From: Alphaproteobacteria bacterium
GTDB lineage: Bacteria; Pseudomonadota; Alphaproteobacteria; Thalassobaculales; Thalassobaculaceae
DNA length: 64,000 nucleotides
Direction of reading: 5' to 3'
NCBI GenBank assembly: GCA_024742275.1
Contig: JANSYS010000021.1
Span: forward strand, 1 to 64,000
Shown here: positions 13,474 to 45,072 of the stretch, in pieces
Layout: each line of letters starts with the position of its first letter
Numbering within the stretch: the stretch's first letter is position 1
Program-made: the position numbers and the translations under genes
Notes under the pieces: model-generated
The model's database searches: none
What the model was told of the DNA's origin: nothing
What the model saw: only the letters and a program-made list of their open reading frames with translations

Positions 13474-14931
13474 ATGACCGACGGCGCGGAACTGACGAGA
13501 CTGACGGCGCGGAACGCGGTTCGTCTGCTGGAGGCGGGCGAGGTAACGCCGCTCGATCTCATCGACGCAGCCGCCGCCCGCATCGCCGAGGTCGAACCGG
13601 CGGTCAACGCACTGCCGACTCTCTGCCTGGACCGTGCCCGCAAGGCCGCCATGCGGCTGGAGGCTCGCCCGGGCAAGGGCGGCCCCGGCTGGCTCGCTGG
13701 CTTGCCCGTGGCGATCAAGGACCTGATGGACGTCGCCGGCGTCCGCACCACCTACGCCTCGCCGATCTACGCCAACCACATCCCCGAAACCTCCCATCCG
13801 CTGGTCGAGCGGTTGGAGGACAAGGGAGCGCTGATCGTCGCCAAGTCGAACACGCCGGAGTTCGGCGCCGGCGGCAACACCTACAACGAGGTGTTCGGCA
13901 AGACCCGCAATCCCTGGAACACATCGCTGACCCCGGGCGGATCCTCCGGCGGCGCGGCGGTCGCGCTGGCGACCGGCGAAGTTTGGCTGGCGCACGGATC
14001 CGACCATGGCGGCTCGCTCCGGGGGCCGGCGGCGCATACCTCCGTCGTCGGGATGCGGCCCTCGCCCGGTCGGGTCACGCGGGGCACGGTGAACAACCTC
14101 TACAGCCCAAGCTCGGTCGAAGGGCCGATGGCGCGCAACGTGCCGGATCTCGCGCTGTTCCTGGACGCCATGGCGGGCCAGTGTCCACGTGACCCGATGA
14201 CCCGACCGGCGCCAGACCGCAGCTTCGTCGGGACGGTGGACGCGGCTCTGGCGGACAAGAAGTCCTGGTGGCCCAAACGGGTCGCCTTCTCCGCGGATCT
14301 CGGTGGCGTCGCTCCGGTCTCCAAGGCGGTCCGCGGGGTGCTCGCCGACGCGGTACGGCGCTTCGAGACCCTCGGACTGCCGGTTGAGGAAGCATGCCCG
14401 GAGATGGGCGGTATCGGGGAAGCGTTCCAGATCCTGCGGGCGATGATCTTCGTGGTGAACCATGCCGAGCGGCTGAAGACCCATCGCGAGCTGATCAAGC
14501 AGGACGTAGTCTGGAACACCGAAAAGGGCCTTGCCCTGACGCCGGAGGAGATCGCCTGGGCCGAGCGCGAGCGCGCAGCCTTCTACCGCCGGGTCTCGTC
14601 ATTCTTCGAAACGTACGACCTGCTGTTGCTGCCGGTGACGGTCCTGCCGCCTTACGACGTGAACAAGACCCGGATCGACGGCGTCGACGGGGTGACGTTC
14701 GACAACTACATCGCCGCTTCGATGACGACGTCGTCCATCACGCTCACCGGGTGCCCGTCCCTGTCACTTCCGGCCGGCTTCAGCGAGGACGGTCGGCCTG
14801 TCGGGCTGCAGGTGGTCGGTCGCCCGCACGACGATGCCGGGCTGCTGGCCGCCGCGGCGCTGCTTGAGGACATGACCGGCCTGGCCGACCGACTCCCGAT
14901 CGATCCGCGCGAGGGCCCGACCATCGACTGA
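13474..14931 (+). CDS. Amidase signature family enzyme
   Basis: A 485-residue amide hydrolase. The Ser-cisSer-Lys triad can be read as Lys82 (VAIKDL), Ser157 (PGGSSGGAAVALATG) and the nucleophile Ser181 (GSDHGGSLRGPA). Length and order are normal for the family. The start at 13474 follows GGGGAA; the frame extends 48 codons further upstream but overlaps the divergent gene's promoter. The family covers acylamidases, aryl-amide hydrolases and GatA; with no gatC or gatB here, a catabolic amidase is more likely than an amidotransferase subunit. Confidence 0.93.
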   Translation: MTDGAELTRLTARNAVRLLEAGEVTPLDLIDAAAARIAEVEPAVNALPTLCLDRARKAAMRLEARPGKGGPGWLAGLPVAIKDLMDVAGVRTTYASPIYANHIPETSHPLVERLEDKGALIVAKSNTPEFGAGGNTYNEVFGKTRNPWNTSLTPGGSSGGAAVALATGEVWLAHGSDHGGSLRGPAAHTSVVGMRPSPGRVTRGTVNNLYSPSSVEGPMARNVPDLALFLDAMAGQCPRDPMTRPAPDRSFVGTVDAALADKKSWWPKRVAFSADLGGVAPVSKAVRGVLADAVRRFETLGLPVEEACPEMGGIGEAFQILRAMIFVVNHAERLKTHRELIKQDVVWNTEKGLALTPEEIAWAERERAAFYRRVSSFFETYDLLLLPVTVLPPYDVNKTRIDGVDGVTFDNYIAASMTTSSITLTGCPSLSLPAGFSEDGRPVGLQVVGRPHDDAGLLAAAALLEDMTGLADRLPIDPREGPTID

Positions 14932-15019
14932 CGGATCGAGCGCGACATCGGCGCGCTTTGCGCACTTGCCCGAAGCTGATTGAGTTGCGGACATGAAACC
15001 GCCGCGAGGGGACACGATC

Positions 15020-16321
15020 ATGACGGTTGAAAAAGTGGAGACGCTCGTCGTCGGCGGCGGCCAGGCGGGGATCGCCGTGAGCGAGCATCTCGGCAGGCTG
15101 GGTGTTCCGCATCTGGTGCTTGAGCGAGGCCGGATCGCCGAGCGCTGGCGCACAGGTCGTTGGGATTCCCTGGTCGCCAACGGCCCCGCCTGGCACGATC
15201 GGTTTCCCGGCCTCGAATTCGACGATGTGGACCCGGACGGCTTTCCGTCGAAGGACCGGGTCGCCGCCTATTTCGACGCGTATGCCGACATGATCGGCGC
15301 GCCGATCCGCTGTGGCGTCGATGTCCTCTCAGTGGCTCGCCACGCTGACCGGCCGGGATTCAGGGTGGAAACGTCCGACGGCCCGATCGAGGCGACCTAC
15401 GTCGTCGCCGCCACCGGCCCGTTCCAGAAACCGGTCATCCCGCCGATCGTACCGAACGACGCGGGCGTCACGCAGATGCACTCCGCCGACTACCGAAACC
15501 CGGATCAATTGCCCGAGGGCGGCGTCCTGGTGGTTGGGGCCGGGTCGTCCGGCACCCAGATCGCCGACGAACTCCTACGCGCCGGGCGCGACGTCTATCT
15601 TTCCGTGGGCCCACACAACCGCTATCCGCGTCGGTATCGCGAGCGCGACTACTGCTGGTGGCTCGGCGTGCTCGGCCGCTGGGACGTCGAGACGCCGGAT
15701 CCGGAGACCCAGCACGTGACCATCGCGGTCAGCGGCGCCTATGGCGGCTTCACTGTCGATTTCCGGCGCATGGCGGAACGCGGGATGACGCTCGTCGGCC
15801 TGACCGAGAGCTACACGGAAGGCGCGATCCGTTTCGCCCCCGACCTGCGCGACAACCTCGCCTATGGCGACCGGGCGCTGATCTCGGAACTGGACGAGGC
15901 CGACGCCTATGTGGCGCGCAACGGGCTGGACCTGCCGGAGGAGCCGGAAGCCCGGATCATTCCGCCCGACCCCGTCTGCGTCACCGAGCCGATCCTCGAC
16001 CTGGACCTGAAGAGATCTGGGATCGGCACGATCCTCTGGGCGACGGGCTACGCCTACGACTTCTCATGGCTGAAGGTCGACGTCTTCGATTCCCAGGGTC
16101 GCCCTCGGCACAAGCGCGGCGTGTCCAAGGAGCCCGGCTTGTACTTCATGGGCCTGCCCTGGCTGTCACGCCGCGGATCGTCCTTCATCTGGGGCGTGTG
16201 GCACGACGCGATGTACGTGGCGGACCACATCGCCACCCATCGTCAGTACCTGGACTATGACCGGGCGGCCAGGGGGCGAACATTCCGCGGAACGGCACTA
16301 CAGGATCGGTCAACCGGCTGA
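15020..16321 (+). CDS. FAD/NAD(P)-dependent oxidoreductase (FMO/CzcO-like monooxygenase)
   Basis: A 433-residue flavoprotein with an N-terminal FAD Rossmann motif VVGGGQAGIA, a WDSLVANGP segment, a central NAD(P) motif VVGAGSSGTQIADEL, and the WATGY stretch near the C-terminus. This is the CzcO/YUCCA-like flavin monooxygenase layout. It lacks the F-x-G-x3-H Baeyer-Villiger fingerprint seen in the gene at 5165-6850, so it is a different subclass. The ATG at 15020 is preceded by GAGGGG; another in-frame ATG lies nine codons upstream. A GntR regulator follows 115 bp downstream and may control it. Confidence 0.88.
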   Translation: MTVEKVETLVVGGGQAGIAVSEHLGRLGVPHLVLERGRIAERWRTGRWDSLVANGPAWHDRFPGLEFDDVDPDGFPSKDRVAAYFDAYADMIGAPIRCGVDVLSVARHADRPGFRVETSDGPIEATYVVAATGPFQKPVIPPIVPNDAGVTQMHSADYRNPDQLPEGGVLVVGAGSSGTQIADELLRAGRDVYLSVGPHNRYPRRYRERDYCWWLGVLGRWDVETPDPETQHVTIAVSGAYGGFTVDFRRMAERGMTLVGLTESYTEGAIRFAPDLRDNLAYGDRALISELDEADAYVARNGLDLPEEPEARIIPPDPVCVTEPILDLDLKRSGIGTILWATGYAYDFSWLKVDVFDSQGRPRHKRGVSKEPGLYFMGLPWLSRRGSSFIWGVWHDAMYVADHIATHRQYLDYDRAARGRTFRGTALQDRSTG

Positions 16322-35647: not shown

Positions 35648-37189
35648 ATGGCCGCCACTTCGCATCCCTACCAGCCACGCACGTTCGCCGGCGACCCGGA
35701 GCGTTTGGCCTTCCGAATGTGCGGAACCGGCGAGTCGGTCACCTTCGCGGAGCTCGAGGCACGCGCCAACCAGGGAGCGCATCTGCTGCGGCAGTTGGGA
35801 GTCCGGGCCGGCGACCACATCGCAATCCTGATGGAAAACCGGCGCGAGTTTCTGGAGATCTGCTTCGCGGCCGACCGGGCCGGCGTCTACTACACGACGA
35901 TCAGCACCCATCTGACGCGAGATGAGATCGGGTACATTCTCGAAGACTGCGGCGCCAAGCTGTTGGTCTCGTCAGACCGCTTCCTCGACCTCGCGACAGA
36001 GTTGGCCGGCGCACCAGCCCGACGCTGGACCACGCTGATCGTCGGAAACACATCACCGGAATTCGACAGCTGGAGCGAGACGGTTGCGGACCAGGCGGAG
36101 AGTCCAATCGAAGACGAAGCGCAGGGCCTGGACATGCTGTACTCCTCAGGCACAACGGGTCGGCCGAAAGGTATCCTATGGCCCCTGCCCGACGACCTGC
36201 CGGGCGGACGCACCATGCTGGTCGAATTGCTGACGTCGCTTTTCGGCTACGCGCCGGATACCCGCTATCTGTGCCCGGCGCCGCTGTATCACGCAGCCCC
36301 GCTACGCCACACCATGGTGACGGTGAAGATGGGGGGATCGGCCTTCATCATGGAACGTTTCGACGCCCAGGAGTCCCTGAGGATTATCGAAGACGAGCGG
36401 ATCACCCACAGTCAATGGGTTCCCACAATGTTCATCCGAATGCTCAAACTGCCGGATGAAGAGAGACTGCGCTACGACGTGTCGTCAATGGTCATGGCCG
36501 TCCACGCGGCGGCCCCGTGTCCGATAGAGATCAAACGGCGAATGATCGACTGGTGGGGGCCGATCATTCACGAGTACTACGCCGGAACGGAAAACAATGG
36601 CTTCACCGCGATCACCACACCGGAATGGCTGGAGCATCAGGGATCCGTGGGAAGGGCCAAACTCGGCATCATTCACATCTGCGGCGAGGATGGCGCGGAA
36701 CTGCCCCTGGGAGAGGAAGGTGAAGTCTATTTCGAGAACGGACACCGGTTCGCCTATCACAACGACCCGGAGAAGACTGCCGCCAGCGCCAACGCGATGG
36801 GCTGGACGACGCTCGGCGACATCGGCCGCGTTGACGAGGAGGGCTACCTCTACCTGACCGACCGCAAGTCCTTCATGATCATATCCGGCGGCGTGAACAT
36901 CTACCCGCAGGAGATCGAGGATGTCCTCCTGTGCCACCCCTCGGTACTGGATGCCGCCGTGTTCGGCGTGCCGAACGAAGACTTCGGCGAGGAGGTGAAG
37001 GCAGTCGTTCAGCCGGTCCCGGCGGTCGACGGCGGAGAGGCGCTGAGAGAAGAACTGATGACCCTTTGTCGCCAACGCCTCTCGAGCATCAAGTGTCCTC
37101 GGAGCATCGACTTCCGTAGATCCCTACCTCGATCGGCAACGGGAAAGCTCTACAAGCGACGCTTGAAGGAAGAATATCTGGCATCCTGA
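35648..37189 (+). CDS. Acyl-CoA synthetase (AMP-forming)
   Basis: A 513-residue ANL-family ligase. Motifs: [14 protein letters not shown] (P-loop), HEYYAGTENNG in place of YGxTE, the hinge segment GYLYLTDRKSFMIISGG, and the C-terminal Lys in LPRSATGKLYKRRL. The altered YYAGTEN adenine motif is typical of a subgroup related to long-chain or bile-acid-like CoA ligases. It closes the ACAD-MDR-ligase unit and would activate the acid imported by the TRAP system next door; the acid is unknown. Confidence 0.92.
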   Translation: MAATSHPYQPRTFAGDPERLAFRMCGTGESVTFAELEARANQGAHLLRQLGVRAGDHIAILMENRREFLEICFAADRAGVYYTTISTHLTRDEIGYILEDCGAKLLVSSDRFLDLATELAGAPARRWTTLIVGNTSPEFDSWSETVADQAESPIEDEAQGLDMLYSSGTTGRPKGILWPLPDDLPGGRTMLVELLTSLFGYAPDTRYLCPAPLYHAAPLRHTMVTVKMGGSAFIMERFDAQESLRIIEDERITHSQWVPTMFIRMLKLPDEERLRYDVSSMVMAVHAAAPCPIEIKRRMIDWWGPIIHEYYAGTENNGFTAITTPEWLEHQGSVGRAKLGIIHICGEDGAELPLGEEGEVYFENGHRFAYHNDPEKTAASANAMGWTTLGDIGRVDEEGYLYLTDRKSFMIISGGVNIYPQEIEDVLLCHPSVLDAAVFGVPNEDFGEEVKAVVQPVPAVDGGEALREELMTLCRQRLSSIKCPRSIDFRRSLPRSATGKLYKRRLKEEYLAS

Positions 37190-37493
37190 CCAGATCGCGA
37201 AGACCGGCGAACATTTGTCTGTCTCGTCAGGCCGCGCCTGAGCGGCCAACGCATGACGGCAAATCCGGTGCCTGACAGCTCGTTGGAACCGGGGACATGG
37301 ACCCGGCGGGTTCAGTGAATGCTGGCCCCCTCCACCGGCAGCCCGACGATGAACTAGATTGCGCTCGATGCCGTTCGCGCGACTGAACCAGCATGAATCC
37401 GCAGGATATCCCGCGTAGGAACACAATGATTAACGGGTTTTTCATAAAACTCCTCCAGGGTCGGGCCTCACAGAGCATTGGGATAGAGTTCAG
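37190..37493. other. 304-bp gap with one hairpin, no gene seen
   Basis: It contains a GC-rich hairpin GGCCGC (37230-37235)/GCGGCC (37242-37247) with a 6-nt loop shortly after the ligase stop, without a T-run, so only a possible terminator. The rest should hold the MFS gene promoter. No small open frame with a credible ribosome binding site was found. Confidence 0.4.
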
Positions 37494-38807
37494 ATGAACC
37501 ATCAGGACAGCGTCGACCGAGCGACCAGTGCCACGCTCTCCGAGCGCCGTGGGTACAACGACGTGCCTGGGCTCCGGATGAAGCGGATCACCGCCATGCT
37601 CTGGACCATGATCGTTTTGGCCGTCCTCAGTCAGTTCTACCGATCCTCGAACGGCGTCATCGCTCCGCAGATCATGGACGAGATGAACGTCGACGCCGCC
37701 GCGATCGGTCTGTCTTCCGGTGCATTCTTCCTGATATTCGCTGCGCTTCAGGTTCCGATCGGGGTTCTGTTCGACAAATACGGCGCGCGTCTCGTCGTGT
37801 CCTCAATGCTCGTCTTCTCGATTGCCGGCTCTATCCTGTTCGCCGTCGCCCATTCCGTGGAGGCGCTCGTCGCCGGACGCTTTTTGATCGGTCTCGGTCT
37901 TGCGGGTGGAATGGTCGGGTCTCTGGTCATCCTTGCCCGGTGGCACACTCCGAGCGATTTCACCCGCGCAATGACGATCCTGTTCGCCACGGCCAATCTC
38001 GGCAGTCTTCTCGCCACTTCACCTCTGGCAGCGTCGGCTGAATGGATCGGCTGGCGGTCCACATTCTTGGCGCTTGCCTTCTTGACGACGTTGGTCGGCA
38101 TCGCGTTCTACGCCGTCGTCAGGGACCGGCCCGACGCAAGCGAGCCGGATGACGGCACGCGTGAGTCTCTCGGCGCCAAGTTCCGCGGCGTCGGTCAGGT
38201 GTTCCAGGTTCGTGGCCTGCTGTGGGTTCTGCCGATGGTGGCCCTCGGATACTCCTCGGTGATTACGATCCTAGGTCTGTGGGGCGCCCCCTATCTGACC
38301 GATGTTCATGGTCTCGACAGCCTGGACGGCGGAACCCTTCTGTCGGTTCTGGCCGTCGCCTTCGTCGCCGGCACCCTCGCTTTCGGGCCGATTCAGAGGC
38401 GGTGCAGCGGCTTCCGGCGTGTCGTAATCGCCAGTGCTACCGTTACCGGCCTGCTGCTCCTGGCGCTCACGGTCTTCATCGAAGCGTCGCTGGTGATCAC
38501 CGTGACGCTGCTGATCCTGATCTGCTTTGTCGGCGCCTTCAGCGTCGTCCTGATGGGCCACGGCATATCCCTCATTCCGAAGGACCTCGTCGGCCGCGGC
38601 ACCACCACCCTGAACTGCGTTTTGATGGGGGGAGCAGCCATTCTCCAGATCGCAAGCGGCGCCCTCGTCGAAACCGTCCAAGTCTGGTTCGGGTCGCCAA
38701 CGGCTGGCTATGCGGCGTTCTTCGGCGCGCTGGGCGTGCTGATGCTGGCCGCGACACTGCTGTACATGCGGGCACCGGAACCGCCTGCAACATCCGACCG
38801 ACCGTAG
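37494..38807 (+). CDS. MFS transporter
   Basis: A 437-residue major-facilitator permease with about 12 transmembrane helices. The first helix is LWTMIVLAVLSQFYRSSNG, and the loop 2-3 motif A appears as GVLFDKYGARLVV. The RFLIGLGLAGGMVGSLVILARW stretch is typical of the anion/organic-acid exchanger branch. GGATAGAG precedes the ATG. Substrate is unknown; its position after the CoA-ester genes suggests an organic acid. The PruR-like gene starts 52 bp after its stop, so a transcript could read through. Confidence 0.9.
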   Translation: MNHQDSVDRATSATLSERRGYNDVPGLRMKRITAMLWTMIVLAVLSQFYRSSNGVIAPQIMDEMNVDAAAIGLSSGAFFLIFAALQVPIGVLFDKYGARLVVSSMLVFSIAGSILFAVAHSVEALVAGRFLIGLGLAGGMVGSLVILARWHTPSDFTRAMTILFATANLGSLLATSPLAASAEWIGWRSTFLALAFLTTLVGIAFYAVVRDRPDASEPDDGTRESLGAKFRGVGQVFQVRGLLWVLPMVALGYSSVITILGLWGAPYLTDVHGLDSLDGGTLLSVLAVAFVAGTLAFGPIQRRCSGFRRVVIASATVTGLLLLALTVFIEASLVITVTLLILICFVGAFSVVLMGHGISLIPKDLVGRGTTTLNCVLMGGAAILQIASGALVETVQVWFGSPTAGYAAFFGALGVLMLAATLLYMRAPEPPATSDRP

Positions 38808-38859
38808 TCCGCCCTCTGTGGAGGACCTGCTAAAGACCGTCGAAAAAGGAAACCGCAAA

Positions 38860-39381
38860 ATGATACGCACCAAAAAACTACTGAACTTCGTCGGCACGCT
38901 GGCCATGGCCCTGCTGTTGATCGCTGCACCGGCGAGCGCCGACTCGCTCGTAGCGCCGTCCGGCAAGATCCTTCTGACGGTCACCGGAGCGATCACGCAG
39001 ACCAACGCCAACGATGCGGCCGAGTTCGACTTCGAGATGCTGCAAAAGATCGGCGTCAGCACGATCGATACGACGACGGCATGGACCCAGGGCAAGAAGA
39101 CATTCGAAGGCGTATCTCTCAAGGCGCTGGCCGACACGGTTGGCGCGACGGGCGCCGTGGCTGAAGTCGTCGCGCTCAACGACTACAAAGTCGACATTCC
39201 GACAAAGGATTTCGCCGACTATCCGGTCATCCTGGCTTATCAAATGGACGGCGAGCGGCTGAAAATTCGGGACAAGGGACCGCTCTGGGTCGTGTACCCC
39301 GAGGACGAACATCCGGAACTGAAGAACAAGGAAACGCAGGCCAAATGGGTTTGGCAGGTGAAGGCAATCCACTTCAAATAG
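38860..39381 (+). CDS. Secreted SUOX-fold protein resembling the pterin-binding PruR
   Basis: 173 residues with a Sec signal peptide cleaved near Ala27 (LAMALLLIAAPASA). The mature part has the molybdopterin-oxidoreductase (sulfite oxidase-like) fold layout: KILLTVTGAI, then FEGVSLKALADTVGATG, ALNDYKVDIP, and RDKGPLWVVYP. It contains no cysteine at all, so it cannot hold molybdenum in the sulfite-oxidase manner. In Agrobacterium tumefaciens, PruR of this type binds pterins in the periplasm and controls the DcpA signalling enzyme. Here the partner is the hybrid kinase starting 48 bp downstream. The ATG at 38860 follows AAAGGA. The pterin-binding role is inference from fold and context. Confidence 0.75.
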   Translation: MIRTKKLLNFVGTLAMALLLIAAPASADSLVAPSGKILLTVTGAITQTNANDAAEFDFEMLQKIGVSTIDTTTAWTQGKKTFEGVSLKALADTVGATGAVAEVVALNDYKVDIPTKDFADYPVILAYQMDGERLKIRDKGPLWVVYPEDEHPELKNKETQAKWVWQVKAIHFK

Positions 39382-39429
39382 ACACGCCAACACCCTCTAC
39401 TTAGGCCTAATCAAAGGGCAGCCCAAGAC

Positions 39430-42138
39430 ATGGCCACAATGCGCGACTTCAAATGGTTCATGACTCGCCACGGCGTGCTCATCGTCGCGTTTGCCGCCTG
39501 TCTTGCGGGCGTATTCTTTTCGATCCAGGGGCTGGTTCAACAACGGGAACTGATCGAGAAGGAAAGCCGGATCAACATCTGGTTTCTGGCCCAGGCAGAG
39601 ATCGAATTCATCCGGTTCACGGAATCCCTAAAAGACTACGCGCTCGATCCGAACTCGGAGACGGCGGGCGAAACGCAGGACCGGTTCGAGATCTTCTGGA
39701 GCCGCCTCCTGCCGTTGCTGGAGGGCCGACAGACAGCCGAACTGCGCAATATCGACGGACTGGTCCCTCTGGTGGAGAACATGATCAGCGAGTTGGAAGC
39801 GCTCGAGCCCACGATCTACGGGCTCGAGTCGTTGCCCGACGGCGCTCTGTCGACGATCTCCGAGAAGCTCGACTATTTGCGGGCGCCTGTTCACGACATG
39901 GTCCGGCGCGGCCTGCTCTATGAATCGGATGAGGTAAGTCGCGCGCGAGATCTGCACAATTCGCTCTACATCAAGCTGCTAGGCCTGTTCGCGCTGATCC
40001 TGGTCGGCGTCTTCACGATCCTCGTCATGCTCTGCATGCAAATCATCAAGACCAACCGCGCGGTTCAGGCGAAAGATCAGGCCGCAACACAGGCAATCCG
40101 GGCACGCACTGAACTCGAATTGGCGATCAACAGCATTTCGGAAGGCTTCATCATCTTCGATCAGAATGATCGGGTGGAGCTCTTCAACCAACGCTACGTC
40201 GACCTCCATCCCATGCAGGCGGACGATCTGGTGGTCGGCGTCAGCTTCCAGGACCTGTTGCGCAGCGCGGTCCGCAATGGCGGCGTCGTCATGCCGCCCG
40301 AAGAGGTGGAAGACTGGATTGCAGACGTCACCGAGCAACGCAGGGCGACCAAGTCGACGACCTTCGAGAGCCGCTTGTCGAATGGTGTCTGGCTGCATAT
40401 CAGCGAGCGTTGGACCAGCGACGGACGTCTGGTGGGCGTTCACACAGACATCACGGAGCTGAAGGAACGCGAACGTCTGGTGAGCGAGAAGACCGAATTG
40501 CTCCAGACGACACTGGACAATATGAAGCACGGTATCGCCGTCTTCGACGACGATATGAGGCTGAAGCTCTACAATCACCGTTTTCTTGAGATCAACGAGT
40601 ATTCGCAAGAGATGGTGGACGCCAATTCGAGCTACGGCGACCTGATCAAGAACGCGGCGTCGCGTGGCGATTTCGGGCCCGGAGATCCGGACGAACTCGT
40701 CGATAGAATGATCAGGTCCATCAAGGACCTGTTGGACAAGACCGCTGAAAACGAACGCTGGGCGCGTCATATCGGCGACGGGCGGGTCGTGGAAGTGGTC
40801 GCGTCCGCCTTGCCGACCGGCGGTTTTGTGAAGACTTACGAGGACATCACCGAACGTACGGCTGCAGAAGCAGAGCGCGCGCGCCTCACAGAGATGTACC
40901 ATGCGTCGCAGCGGACCCAGGCGCTCGGCACCCTGGCCGGCGGCATCGCGCACGACTTCAACAACATCATCGGCGGTATCCTGGGGAACTGTTCGCTGCT
41001 GATCAGCGATCTGCCGAAGGATTCGGCTCTACAGAAGCGCGTGACGCAGATCATAGAGTCCGGAACGCGCGCCCGCGATCTTGTTCGGCAGATCCTGACC
41101 TACAGCCGGAACGCCGGCTCCGACAGGAAGCCGCTGGACCTCAAGAGCACCGTCCTCGACAGTCTCGAGGCGGTGAAATCACAAATTCCGGCCACTGTCA
41201 GCCTGGAGATTGGCGCCCTCGAACGATGCTTCGCAGAGGCGGACGCTACTCAAGTTCATCAGCTCCTGGTCAATATCTGCCAAAACGCCGCTCAGGCGAT
41301 CGGAGCAGGCGTCAAAGGGAAGATCACAGTCTCCATGGAGACCTGCGTCATCGACGGCACCGACGACCCGATGCCACAACTCTCCGCAGGCAACTCCGTG
41401 GCGGAAGGCCGTTCGGCAAACGGCCATTTGGAGGACCTGGAGCCGGGACGGTACGTGCGGATCGGGATCACGGATACCGGGCCGGGAATTCCCGCCGAGA
41501 TAATGCCGCGAATCTTCGAACCCTTCTTCACGACCAAGAAGATCGGCGAGGGAACGGGCCTCGGTCTCGCGGCGGTCCAAGGCATTGTGCGGAATCATGG
41601 GGGTGCGGTCCTCGTTGAAAGCCTGGAACGGTTCGGCACCCGCTTTGACATCTACCTGCCGGCCGTAGAGGAGCCGGCTGCGGCGGCCGTTGAAAAGCGC
41701 TCCGCGAAGGGCCCGACCAGCCGGGGCAGCGAGCGACTGTTGCTGATCGACGACGACGACGTGCTGTTGGGCGTCAGCCAGGAAATCCTGACGCGGCTCG
41801 GCTACACGGTGGATGCGTTCGGCGACGCCAATGAAGCTCTAGAGGCCTTCCGCGGCAGCACTGACGCTTGGGATCTGGTCATCACCGACCGTAAGATGCC
41901 GAACATTACCGGCGAGGATGTCGCCGCCGCCGTTCGCGCCGCTCGCTCCGACATTCCGATCGTCATGTTGAGCGGCTTTGTTTCACCGGACGAGCACGCG
42001 ACGATACTCTCACGCGGCGTCACCACCGTCGTCGGAAAGCCCGTCCTCCCCGACGAACTCTTGGCTGCGGTAAAATCCGCGCTCGGCCAGGAGAACGATG
42101 TTTCGACTCATCCAGAACTGGAGCTGTCAAAGTGCTAA
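39430..42138 (+). CDS. Hybrid sensor histidine kinase with periplasmic domain and two PAS domains
   Basis: A 902-residue inner-membrane signalling protein. A transmembrane helix at about 13-36 and another at about 178-206 enclose a helical periplasmic domain of about 140 residues. Two PAS domains follow (about 225-345 and 350-475), then HisKA with His508 in GGIAHDFNN, and HATPase with N-box [10 protein letters not shown] and G-boxes DTGPGIP and [13 protein letters not shown]-terminal receiver domain has DDDD near 775 and phospho-acceptor Asp820 (ITDRKMP) with Lys in VGKPVLP. A receiver on the kinase implies a phosphorelay. The preceding secreted PruR-like protein is the obvious periplasmic input. 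Confidence 0.92.
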
Positions 42139-42602
42139 GAAATAGCCATGACGCGTCGGCCGATGGCGCCTACGTCCGTCCTCCCGAAAGCCCGAACGGG
42201 CCTATAAAAGTCTGCTTGGTCGAAGACGACCGAGACTTGCGGGAAACGCTGGCCGAAGTCCTCAATCGCGCGGGGTTCGACGCGCGCACCGCACAGAATG
42301 GCTTGCAGGCCATTGAGATGCTGCGCGACTGGCGGCCGGAAATCGTGGTCTGCGACATGATAATGCCCGACTGCGAAGGCTTCGAAGTGCTTCGCAATGC
42401 ACAATCGATCATCCCGAACGCTCGGTTCGTGATGATCTCCGGTGCCACCGGCGAAATCTTGGACGTGTTGGAGGCGGCGCAGCTGCTCGGTGCGGATGCG
42501 ATTTTGCGCAAGCCGTTCACGCCGGACGAACTTCTGGACACGCTGGCCGGCTTTTCCAACGACGGCGTCGGCACTGCCGTCGGATCGCCTGCGGAGACGT
42601 GA
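42132..42602 (+). CDS. Single-domain response regulator
   Basis: A 156-residue stand-alone receiver with no output domain. Acidic pocket residues lie in LVEDDRD, the phospho-acceptor is Asp75 in VVCDMIMPD, and the switch Ser and Lys lie in MISGATG and LRKPFTPDEL. The first ATG would remove conserved strands, so the GTG at 42132 (preceded by GGAG) is the start; it overlaps the kinase gene by 7 bp. With no DNA-binding domain it should act by protein contact or as a phosphate shuttle, receiving phosphate through the hybrid kinase or the small His protein encoded at 43329. Confidence 0.9.
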   Translation: MLRNSHDASADGAYVRPPESPNGPIKVCLVEDDRDLRETLAEVLNRAGFDARTAQNGLQAIEMLRDWRPEIVVCDMIMPDCEGFEVLRNAQSIIPNARFVMISGATGEILDVLEAAQLLGADAILRKPFTPDELLDTLAGFSNDGVGTAVGSPAET

Positions 42603-42669
42603 CCGTTTACGGGAAGTCGAGGCGCATTCGCCCTCGGCGGTACGCCCGAAACGAGATGGAATGGATGGC

Positions 42670-43332
42670 ATGAGGGAGGAACCGGTGTCAGTTGTGCGCG
42701 AAGAGACCCTGCCAGACGACCAGGTTTCCGGTGACAGCGGTCAGACGGCCGCTGCCGATGACACCAGGTTTGCAGAGGCGGAGGCCGGCGTCCGCGCATT
42801 GCTGCGCGGGATCGGGGAAGATCCGGATCGCGACGGGTTGCTGGAGACGCCCGCGAGGGTCGTACGGGCCTTTTCCGAGTATTGCGCCGGCTACGCCATC
42901 GACCCGATCGCCCTCCTGAAAAAGACCTTCACCGAAGTATCGGGCTATCAGAACCTGGTAGTCCTGACAGATATCGACTTCGTCTCACACTGCGAGCACC
43001 ATCTCGCGCCGATCATCGGCAAGGCGCATGTCGCCTACCTGCCATCCAAATCGGTCGTCGGCATCAGCAAGTTGGCAAGGGTCATCGATGCCTACGCCCG
43101 GCGGCTCCAGATCCAGGAGCGCATGACGGCTCAGATCGCCCAATGCATCGAGGACGGTCTGCACCCGAAGGCGGTCGGAGTCGTTATCGACGCCGAGCAC
43201 GGATGCATGACCCTGCGGGGCGTCAACAAGAAAGGCCCGCGCATGCGGACCCAAGATTTCAGGGGCGAACTCGCAAAGGACCTGAACATGCAGAAACAGT
43301 TCTTCGAAGCGATCGCAGCGCGCGGCGCATGA
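42670..43332 (+). CDS. folE: GTP cyclohydrolase I (FolE)
   Basis: Converts GTP to 7,8-dihydroneopterin triphosphate, the entry step to folate, biopterin and related pterins. The 221-residue protein has the zinc ligands Cys108 and His111 in SHCEHHLAP, the second-shell Cys179 in EHGCMTLRG, and the active-site stretch VGISKLARVIDAYARRLQIQERMTAQIA. The start is uncertain: ATG at 42661 or 42670, or GTG at 42685 which has GGGAGGA at close range. The N-terminal 35 residues are acidic and not conserved. Its stop overlaps the next gene (ATGA). A folE gene inside a kinase operon is unusual. Confidence 0.95.
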   Translation: MREEPVSVVREETLPDDQVSGDSGQTAAADDTRFAEAEAGVRALLRGIGEDPDRDGLLETPARVVRAFSEYCAGYAIDPIALLKKTFTEVSGYQNLVVLTDIDFVSHCEHHLAPIIGKAHVAYLPSKSVVGISKLARVIDAYARRLQIQERMTAQIAQCIEDGLHPKAVGVVIDAEHGCMTLRGVNKKGPRMRTQDFRGELAKDLNMQKQFFEAIAARGA

Positions 43333-43619
43333 AAGAGCCTTCAGGCCGCCAGCCCGGAATGCCGGACACCGACATGCCGGACAGCGACATGCCGGACAGC
43401 GAAAAGCCGGACGCCGGGTCCGACGGGCAAGAGGAACTCGCCCGCGTGACGCACGACATAAACAATGCGCTCGGCGGACTTATTTCGAGTCTCTACCTTT
43501 GCGTCTCGGACATCGAACCGGACCATCCACTGCGCGGTCGCTTGGAAGCCGCAAATGCAACGTCGCTCAGGCTCCGATCCCTGGTGAAACGCCTGGAAGC
43601 GGTTGTTTCGCGCCACTAG
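43329..43619 (+). CDS. Small stand-alone DHp-like (histidine phosphotransfer?) protein
   Basis: A 96-residue protein. Residues about 10-28 are a repetitive acidic stretch with three PD[TS]DM/PDSEKPD copies. Residues 33-92 look like a kinase dimerisation helix pair: ELARVTHDINNALGGLISS with candidate phospho-acceptor His42 in the H-D-x-N-N context typical of HisKA, then a second helix LRGRLEAANATSLRLRSLVKRLEAVV. There is no ATPase domain. It resembles the dimerisation part of a kinase acting as a phosphotransfer protein. The start ATG overlaps the folE stop. I rate the coding call high and the phosphotransfer function moderate. Confidence 0.7.
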   Translation: MKEPSGRQPGMPDTDMPDSDMPDSEKPDAGSDGQEELARVTHDINNALGGLISSLYLCVSDIEPDHPLRGRLEAANATSLRLRSLVKRLEAVVSRH

Positions 43620-43632
43620 GGATCGACGCGGG

Positions 43633-45072
43633 TTAAGACAGCGCTCGGTCCTTGGGAAGAATTCGGATCTGGACGGGCTCTGACAGCCCCTTGACCTGCT
43701 TCGGCGGAACCGAGACCAGATCTGCCAGTTCCGGGCCACCGCCGGTCCGTTCAATTCTCTCGCACGTCGCCTCGCTGATCACCAGATCCGTATCGATCTC
43801 GCGAGTCAGGCGTTCCAGCCGGTCGGCCAGGTTCACCGTCGTTCCGATCGCGGTGAAGTCGAGGCGCCGGTCGGCCCCGGCATTGCCCGTCACGACCGCT
43901 CCGTAGTGGATGCCGATCCCGATGCCGATCGGGTCTAGGCCCTTGCCGGTCCGAACCGTGTTCCACCGGCCGACCTCCGCCAACAGACGGCGGGCCGTCC
44001 GCAGTGCCGCCCTGGCGTCATCGGCCGTCGGCTTCGGCGCGCCGAACAGAGCCATCGCCCCATCGCCCATGAACTTGTCGAGCGTCCCTCGCTCGAAAAA
44101 GACCGAGTCGGCGATCGTCTTGTGCAAATCGCGAAGCAGCGAAATGGTCGCTTCCGGCGACTGGGTGTCGGCGATGGTCGTGAAACCGCGAACGTCGACA
44201 AAAAGAACCGCGGCGTCGAGCGCCTGCGGCTCGCCCATGGCTCCGCCGGAACGGGATATCTCGTCGACGACGTTGGGCGAGAAGTACCGGGCGAGGACCG
44301 CACGTTCGGAAGCTGCCCGTGCCTCGCGCACGACGAGTCCGCGAGCCCGTGCGACGATCAGGGCGACGATCCCGGCGACGATGAGTATGGCGATCGCACT
44401 CTGTCGACTCTGGACCACGTCGACAAAGAAAAGATCGGTGTAGATGGCGTAGGCTTCCGGGGTGTTGAACGACGGCGGTTCGCCAAGATCCCCCAGCCGG
44501 TACGCGCCGTCGGTCGTGGCGATCCACTCGGTCGCGGCAAGCCATGCACCCGCGACCCAGGCGCCGGTCCAGAGCGTGAGGGCGGGCGATGTCAACAGCC
44601 CGGTGATCGCGACCAGCAGGAAAAAGAAGACGAAACTCCCCAGCTTCAACATCAGAGGCCAGGGCGGCGCGGTCTCTAGAAGCGGGTTCGGCACTACCGT
44701 CGCGACCGCCACGATCAGCACGTCTACGACCGCGAAGACGAAGAGAACCCACCGGCGCTGCGGATGACGAAGCACGAGACGCCACTGCAACAGGCCGGAT
44801 CCAGCAAACGCCACGCACAGGCCGATGGTCCAGATCACCTCAACCCGCCAGAACTGCAGAGCGAGCCAGAGGCAGACGATCACCATGACCGCCACCCTTG
44901 ACCATACCGCCAGGGCCAGGCCGTCCCGCTGTGCGCGCCTGAAAGCCCGCGCAAAGGAGGGATCCCGCACTCCGGCGGAGGCTGCAGCGAGGTTCACCGG
45001 AACACCGGCTTTCCAGTTCCGGATCAGTCGCCTCGGGTTCAGTTGATTGAGGAACAAAGGACTAGGCCTCAA
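43633..45072 (-). CDS. Membrane-anchored class III adenylate/guanylate cyclase
   Basis: About 479 residues, converging on the small DHp gene. The N-terminal half has about five to six hydrophobic helices. The cyclase domain begins near 280: metal Asp in AALFVDVRGFTTIAD-like sequence (read as AVLFVDVRGFTT) and in KFMGDGAMALFG, followed by IGIGIHYGAVVTGNAG and FTAIGTTVNLADRLE with the transition-state Asn and Arg. The Lys in DKFMGDG favours ATP. The first codon is TTG at 45072 with no good ribosome binding site, so the true start may be a little further in. It starts 26 bp after the stop of the upstream flavoprotein gene. Confidence 0.88.
   Translation of the reverse strand: MRPSPLFLNQLNPRRLIRNWKAGVPVNLAAASAGVRDPSFARAFRRAQRDGLALAVWSRVAVMVIVCLWLALQFWRVEVIWTIGLCVAFAGSGLLQWRLVLRHPQRRWVLFVFAVVDVLIVAVATVVPNPLLETAPPWPLMLKLGSFVFFFLLVAITGLLTSPALTLWTGAWVAGAWLAATEWIATTDGAYRLGDLGEPPSFNTPEAYAIYTDLFFVDVVQSRQSAIAILIVAGIVALIVARARGLVVREARAASERAVLARYFSPNVVDEISRSGGAMGEPQALDAAVLFVDVRGFTTIADTQSPEATISLLRDLHKTIADSVFFERGTLDKFMGDGAMALFGAPKPTADDARAALRTARRLLAEVGRWNTVRTGKGLDPIGIGIGIHYGAVVTGNAGADRRLDFTAIGTTVNLADRLERLTREIDTDLVISEATCERIERTGGGPELADLVSVPPKQVKGLSEPVQIRILPKDRALS

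Follow-up and report, generated by a model that had tools for sequence, protein, structure and literature searches.

The closest described relatives of the locus reported here are the PruA-PruR-DcpA pathway of Agrobacterium tumefaciens, whose regulator DcpA carries cyclic di-GMP (c-di-GMP) domains, and the PruR-DTB class, in which PruR is paired with a periplasmic-domain kinase, as in Ruegeria pomeroyi DSS-3 (PMC13259868). The June 2026 review that names this class, cited here from excerpts, puts the number of unique PruR-regulator pair sequences at more than 5,500, describes PruR-DTB systems as two-gene operons and knows of no pterin efflux system (PMC13259868). We analysed a 64,000-nucleotide stretch (the window) of contig JANSYS010000021.1 (assembly GCA_024742275.1), from an alphaproteobacterium of the family Thalassobaculaceae, which carries a PruR-kinase pair within a conserved six-gene cassette. 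Judging from sequence, we put at roughly 55% the reading that the cassette encodes a PruR-DTB pterin-sensing phosphorelay bundled with its own ligand synthase and a probable pterin transporter. The six genes are, in order:

37494 to 38807, + strand: major facilitator superfamily (MFS) transporter, 437 residues, OPA/ACS-like (organic-anion type), candidate pterin transporter (MFS_1, 141.7 bits)
38860 to 39381, + strand: PruR-type putative secreted pterin-binding protein, 173 residues (phmmer, Foldseek, contact residues)
39430 to 42138, + strand: DTB-type hybrid histidine kinase, 902 residues, with a transmembrane (TM) segment, periplasmic WX7E domain (W51 to E59), second TM segment, two PAS_7 domains, HisKA (H508), HATPase and receiver (D820)
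42132 to 42602, + strand: single-domain receiver, 156 residues, D75 (Response_reg, 77.3 bits)
about 42661 to 43332, + strand: FolE, GTP cyclohydrolase I, cassette-specific paralogue, 223 residues (TIGR00063, 186.3 bits)
43329 to 43619, + strand: candidate orphan DHp phosphotransfer protein, 96 residues, H42, without an ATPase domain (invariant residues, hhalign)

A first-pass annotation of this DNA had described the last five genes in this order, the final four overlapping or nearly abutting, and the open reading frames (ORFs) of the window bear this out: PruR and the kinase are 48 bp apart, and the following gaps are -7 (kinase-receiver), 58 (receiver-FolE) and -4 (FolE-DHp). Taken as the whole unit, these five are incomplete: the annotation overlooked the conserved MFS gene upstream of PruR, the sixth member of the block and the one most relevant to the idea of an exported signal. 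The FolE start at 42661 was picked by eye, and PruR might begin earlier, at an in-frame GTG (38818).

The product of 38860-39381 is a PruR by fold, sequence and contact residues. It scored 30.3 bits against Pfam Oxidored_molyb (cut-off 24), and phmmer returned the PruR entries 7rkb (E 1.6e-41) and 7kos (1.8e-40), then 7kp2 and 7kom. An AlphaFold model built from six orthologues (pLDDT 77) was searched with Foldseek; the best match was Agrobacterium PruR, 7KOS (E 4.7e-17, 46% identity), with TM-scores of 0.89-0.91 by target length to the 7KOS chains listed. Ranks one to seven were all PruR entries (7kos, 7rkb, 7kou, 7kp2, 7kom), and sulfite oxidases came only after them, which agrees with the annotated likeness to PruR of a cysteine-free protein of sulfite oxidase (SUOX) fold. 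None of the 173 residues is a cysteine, so the molybdenum-ligating cysteine is absent, and the SUOX-type fold is as in PruR. A single N-terminal hydrophobic stretch (residues 5-28, by hydropathy alone) predicts a signal peptide. The pterin-contact residues given in the excerpts for Agrobacterium PruR are Asn102, Tyr104 and Trp160 (PMC13259868); their counterparts, N107, Y109 and W165, lie at a constant offset of 5 and are invariant in the six orthologues. The annotation had named a mismatch with PruR, or a fold unable to bind a pterin, as refuting its reading; neither was seen, and pterin binding by this protein is predicted.

The kinase carries two PAS_7 domains, HisKA, HATPase_c and Response_reg by Pfam, and its hydrophobic stretches at residues 10-37 and 175-209, again by hydropathy alone, flank the predicted periplasmic domain; the annotated hybrid kinase with a periplasmic domain is thus retained. 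The periplasmic WX7E motif, W51 and E59, is invariant in six loci (defined below). For comparison we used a named set of 80 PruR loci, the best matches among at least 578 relatives. By a crude motif search, WX7E occurs in 52 of the 79 regulator ORFs that follow PruR in this set (one locus, L065, has no regulator ORF in the available DNA). A sequence search of the PDB with the periplasmic domain gave no convincing match (best E 0.62). The single-domain receiver keeps the acid pair and the Asp, Ser and Lys motifs, and is about 50-72% identical to its orthologues in relatives. The identities of sensor and kinase are firm, and by its sequence features 38860-42138 is a PruR-DTB pair: directly after PruR comes a regulator gene whose product joins a periplasmic WX7E domain to PAS, HisKA, HATPase and receiver modules, and hence has a kinase output (PMC13259868, excerpts). 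With the Agrobacterium pathway the locus shares the PruR fold, the contact residues and a WX7E partner, and a FolM/PruA-like reductase encoded elsewhere in the genome may be the counterpart of PruA; its regulator, however, is a hybrid kinase rather than a GGDEF/EAL protein, whereas DcpA has c-di-GMP domains (PMC13259868, excerpts). The annotation had pointed to this kinase output as a departure; the kinase is there, but since PruR-DTB is already described, a kinase output of PruR is not new, and we rejected that claim of novelty (PMC13259868, excerpts).

What goes further than the described PruR-DTB systems is the MFS gene, the conserved order of six genes and a distinct clade of cassette FolE. 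To the two-gene operon of the excerpts the cassette adds the MFS transporter, FolE, the single-domain receiver and the orphan DHp protein, and the excerpts mention no folE or transporter linked to PruA-PruR-DcpA (PMC13259868). Our literature search found nothing that places a GTP cyclohydrolase with a molybdopterin-dependent oxidoreductase, a sensor histidine kinase and an MFS transporter in one gene cluster; on periplasmic kinases linked to pterin and folE in an operon it yielded the review and one cyanobacterium paper, and the pterin-transport papers among the matches listed dealt mainly with Leishmania and trypanosomes.

The order MFS-PruR-kinase-receiver-FolE-DHp was found in 6 of 36 family genomes, across three genera: the window (G000), G002, G018, G007, G009 and G026. 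Because this order is conserved in relatives, the cassette is beyond chance. No further gene beyond MFS or DHp was common to all six loci among the matches listed, with scattered pairwise matches; the G009 contig starts at the MFS gene. All six frames are intact in three loci (window, G002 and G018). Ratios of nonsynonymous to synonymous divergence (dN/dS), from a simple Nei-Gojobori count with partly saturated synonymous sites, were about 0.15-0.25 in all six genes between the window and G002 (dN/dS values of 0.142/0.894 for MFS, 0.180/1.241 for FolE and 0.351/2.006 for DHp), 0.05-0.25 between G007 and G009 (PruR, FolE, DHp) and 0.22-0.58 between G018 and G026, lowest in FolE and highest in DHp; MFS was compared in the window-G002 pair only. 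These values show purifying selection on the cassette genes. The cassette has 61% G+C against 65% for the window, which would allow a horizontal gain. G001 and G005 are single-contig genomes of 1.5 Mb within a genus of 5 Mb genomes; neither gave a PruR or MFS-orthologue match.

The annotated presence of a pterin-synthesis enzyme holds. FolE scored 226.7 bits against GTP_cyclohydroI and 186.3 against TIGR00063 (cut-off 181.6), and its HCEHH and HGC motifs, which we take to hold the zinc ligands, are invariant in the six cassette copies. Each cassette genome carries at least one other folE, and G026 carries two. In a midpoint-rooted tree of 52 FolE rows, 29 of them the best class matches fetched, one long branch (100/100) parted the six cassette copies from the other 46 rows; 16 of 17 family housekeeping rows clustered opposite them, and the remaining one (L169) grouped with class rows. 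On the strength of this separate clade we rejected the cassette folE as a recent duplicate of the resident gene. Among 385 genomes sampled across the class, in which at most the best 8 candidates (4 for MFS, 7 for FolE) were scored per genome, no other FolE of the cassette clade was found, the window's own copy scoring 442 bits and the next best 268. Within the named set, 70 PruR loci have at least 5 kb of downstream DNA, and folE is present only in L053 and L058, which are G007 and G026. The annotation's expectation of a conserved folE neighbourhood is accordingly upheld by the six family genomes, but within a single family, and in the named set by just two cassette genomes.

The MFS orthologue lies upstream of PruR in all six cassette loci, 61-79% identical to that of the window. 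Among the 36 family genomes it occurs (548-846 bits) in the six cassette genomes only, always adjoining PruR, and the next MFS scores 226. The 385-genome sample, which contains G000 of the six cassette genomes, gave four matches at 565-819 bits, all adjoining PruR; the eight others fetched, at 363 bits or less, have no PruR within 1.5 kb, these 12 being the best matches. In the named set the MFS gene adjoins PruR in 6 of 80 loci (L053, L054, L055, L058, L059 and L060), and an MFS-PruR-kinase core is thus found in Alphaproteobacteria outside the family, G091 of another family having the same order. Conserved order ties folE to PruR in one family and MFS to PruR in at least two. The remaining 74 named loci gave no MFS homologue, 7 of the 80 having less than 1.6 kb of upstream DNA, so the data do not support the idea that PruR genes in general have a transporter next to them.

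By fold and profile the MFS protein resembles the OPA/ACS group. A profile search of the PDB returned SLC37A4 (E 5e-20), DgoT, VGLUT2 and sialin, and the AlphaFold model (pLDDT 84) matches DgoT and SLC37A4 (G6PT), with the drug exporter MdfA nearly as close in fold. R50, invariant in 14 homologues, falls on the arginine in TM1 of SLC37A4. It differs from that group in lacking the TM7 lysine of SLC37A4 and in scoring far under the named subfamily cut-offs (TIGR00893, 94.1 bits against 395; TIGR00881, 79.1 against 407.75); MFS_1 is the sole family whose cut-off it reaches. As its close orthologues were found beside PruR only, and from its company in the cassette, we regard it as a probable pterin transporter, the pterin substrate being predicted.

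In the last gene product, H42, N45 and N46 are invariant in the six loci, and hhalign of the orphan DHp against the DHp of its own kinase, from four loci, gave 98.2% probability (E 3.6e-14), while a PDB sequence search with the DHp alignment found no convincing match (best E 0.1). The ORF is 96 residues in the window, 80 in G002 and about 189-213 in G007, G009, G018 and G026. With the starts that we chose, the gene shares 4 nt with the end of folE in three loci and begins 8 nt after the folE stop in the other three. Kinase, single-domain receiver and a dedicated non-classical His phosphotransferase are also combined in SdrG-PhyT of Sphingomonas melonis (PMC5898713, excerpts), and ChpT (PMC3433190, excerpts) is a dimeric kinase-like phosphotransferase. 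The orphan DHp differs in consisting of a DHp hairpin only, extended in other genera by a PAS-like part, and PhyT is membrane-bound, which the orphan DHp is not (PMC5898713, excerpts). Three loci of another family (f57 type) have an HDxNN ORF of 222-227 residues upstream of MFS (L054:5899-6567, L059:141-812, L153:15259-15942); the two scanned, those of L054 and L059, have weak sub-threshold Response_reg matches, that of L059 also FIST, and neither has an ATPase domain.

We infer the ligand, the direction of transport, the path of the phosphate and the output as follows. FolE would convert GTP to dihydroneopterin triphosphate, from which housekeeping enzymes, including the FolM/PruA-like reductase encoded elsewhere, would form a reduced pterin of small size. 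Transport of this pterin across the inner membrane would fall to the MFS protein, outward being likelier than inward. Periplasmic PruR could then bind it and dock on the WX7E domain of the kinase, shifting phosphorylation at H508 and D820, and phosphate would pass to the single-domain receiver and the orphan DHp, or through both to a response regulator whose gene lies outside the cassette. In this way the cell would sense reduced pterin in its surroundings, whether from itself or from its neighbours. A more ambitious version, which we consider less likely than not, is a self-contained circuit with a dedicated FolE, the first pterin efflux transporter, PruR-kinase sensing and its own relay, in which a reduced pterin would serve as an autoinducer-like or redox signal. 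The reductase candidate, a short-chain reductase with the TGX3RXG and YX3K motifs, lies at G000:C27:22484-23209 and is 27-29% identical to E. coli FolM.

Several observations weigh against a bundled sensor, synthase and transporter. The MFS frame is intact in four of the six loci: in G007 (L035 about 13690-15120, BAL199 contig ABHC01000003.1) the gene is split by about 1.4 kb with a 425-residue transposase-like ORF, and in G026 the frame shifts close to the codon at which the G007 copy is split. In G009, a 240-contig assembly, both kinase and receiver have broken reading frames. The MFS protein is closest to symporters and exchangers of organic anions (DgoT, SLC37A4), which to our knowledge include no known pterin carrier, and by our reading it lacks the GP-rich motif of drug antiporters. 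The last gene scores 20.6 bits for HisKA, below the cut-off of 26.9; of its longer relatives, the three scanned were G007 and G009, which show PAS_7 with HisKA, and G018, where PAS_8 is the sole match, all of these below cut-off, and its dN/dS rises to 0.58 in one pair (G018-G026). All ten genomes searched, including four that lack the cassette, have a FolM/PruA-like reductase with both motifs, so it is not cassette-specific, and no gene product of the cluster has an output domain. Lastly, folE is absent from 68 of the 70 named PruR loci, and both folE and MFS are missing from 15 further PruR loci of relatives, some of their contigs being short (L046, 4.2 kb); PruR signalling therefore needs no linked folE. 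Of 32 PruR matches, the window and the best 20 others were taken with long flanks, leaving out the 11 weakest.

The same absences are also an argument for a plain PruR-DTB sensor, in which FolE is a regulated output or a neighbour serving another use, supplying for example extra folate or pterin cofactor in certain conditions, and the MFS protein carries an unrelated organic anion, as its nearness to sugar-acid and sugar-phosphate transporters would suggest. Most PruR loci examined lack both genes, and L054, L055, L059, L060 and G091 have MFS-PruR-kinase without folE. Against this stand the place of folE between two signalling genes, overlapping or nearly abutting the DHp gene in all six loci, and the finding of a close MFS orthologue beside this PruR only; we consider the explanation doubtful. 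That the MFS protein is a pterin importer or UhpC-like membrane co-sensor, reporting environmental rather than self-made pterins, is improbable: its nearest solved relatives are DgoT, which is an H+ symporter, and SLC37A4, which exchanges glucose-6-phosphate, and a UhpC-type NCBIfam model is among its weak matches (27.5 bits), but folE within the cassette suits synthesis rather than uptake, the kinase is already equipped with PruR and a periplasmic domain, and MdfA, a drug exporter, is nearly as close in fold. A pterin-sensing phosphorelay bundled with synthase and transporter is the reading we keep, and the first-pass interpretation as a whole is partly supported.

Neighbouring sequence was also surveyed. 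An Rfam scan of 36500-44500 gave no matches, a sigma-70 scan found no site where 1.3 were expected, and the gaps between cassette genes gave no terminator-like site on the + strand. Convergent to the cassette, at 43633-45072 on the - strand, lies an ORF that by eye resembles class III adenylate cyclase; its conservation was not seen among the six cassette loci. A mandelate racemase/enolase-superfamily gene lies 3' of the kinase in L054 (by Pfam) and in L059 and L060 (by eye), all without folE. Of 21 genes upstream of PruR that were read by eye, 16, all at Rhodobacteraceae-type loci, resemble sugar-nucleotide or exopolysaccharide enzymes: a GalU-like UTP-glucose-1-phosphate uridylyltransferase in L075, L088, L092, L094, L097, L106, L110, L113, L114, L126 and L130, and an exopolysaccharide glycosyltransferase in L079, L087, L107, L116 and L123. 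These sugar-linked neighbours are in line with a biofilm output. The reading covered these 21 upstream genes, and the others may include unrelated transporters.

With close orthologues found beside PruR only and an extra folE alongside, the cassette MFS protein is a first concrete, testable candidate for the missing pterin transporter. If the reading is right, it would suggest that a pterin can serve as a signal in its own right and need not be a side product of making folate, and that the PruR pathway can end in a phosphorelay.

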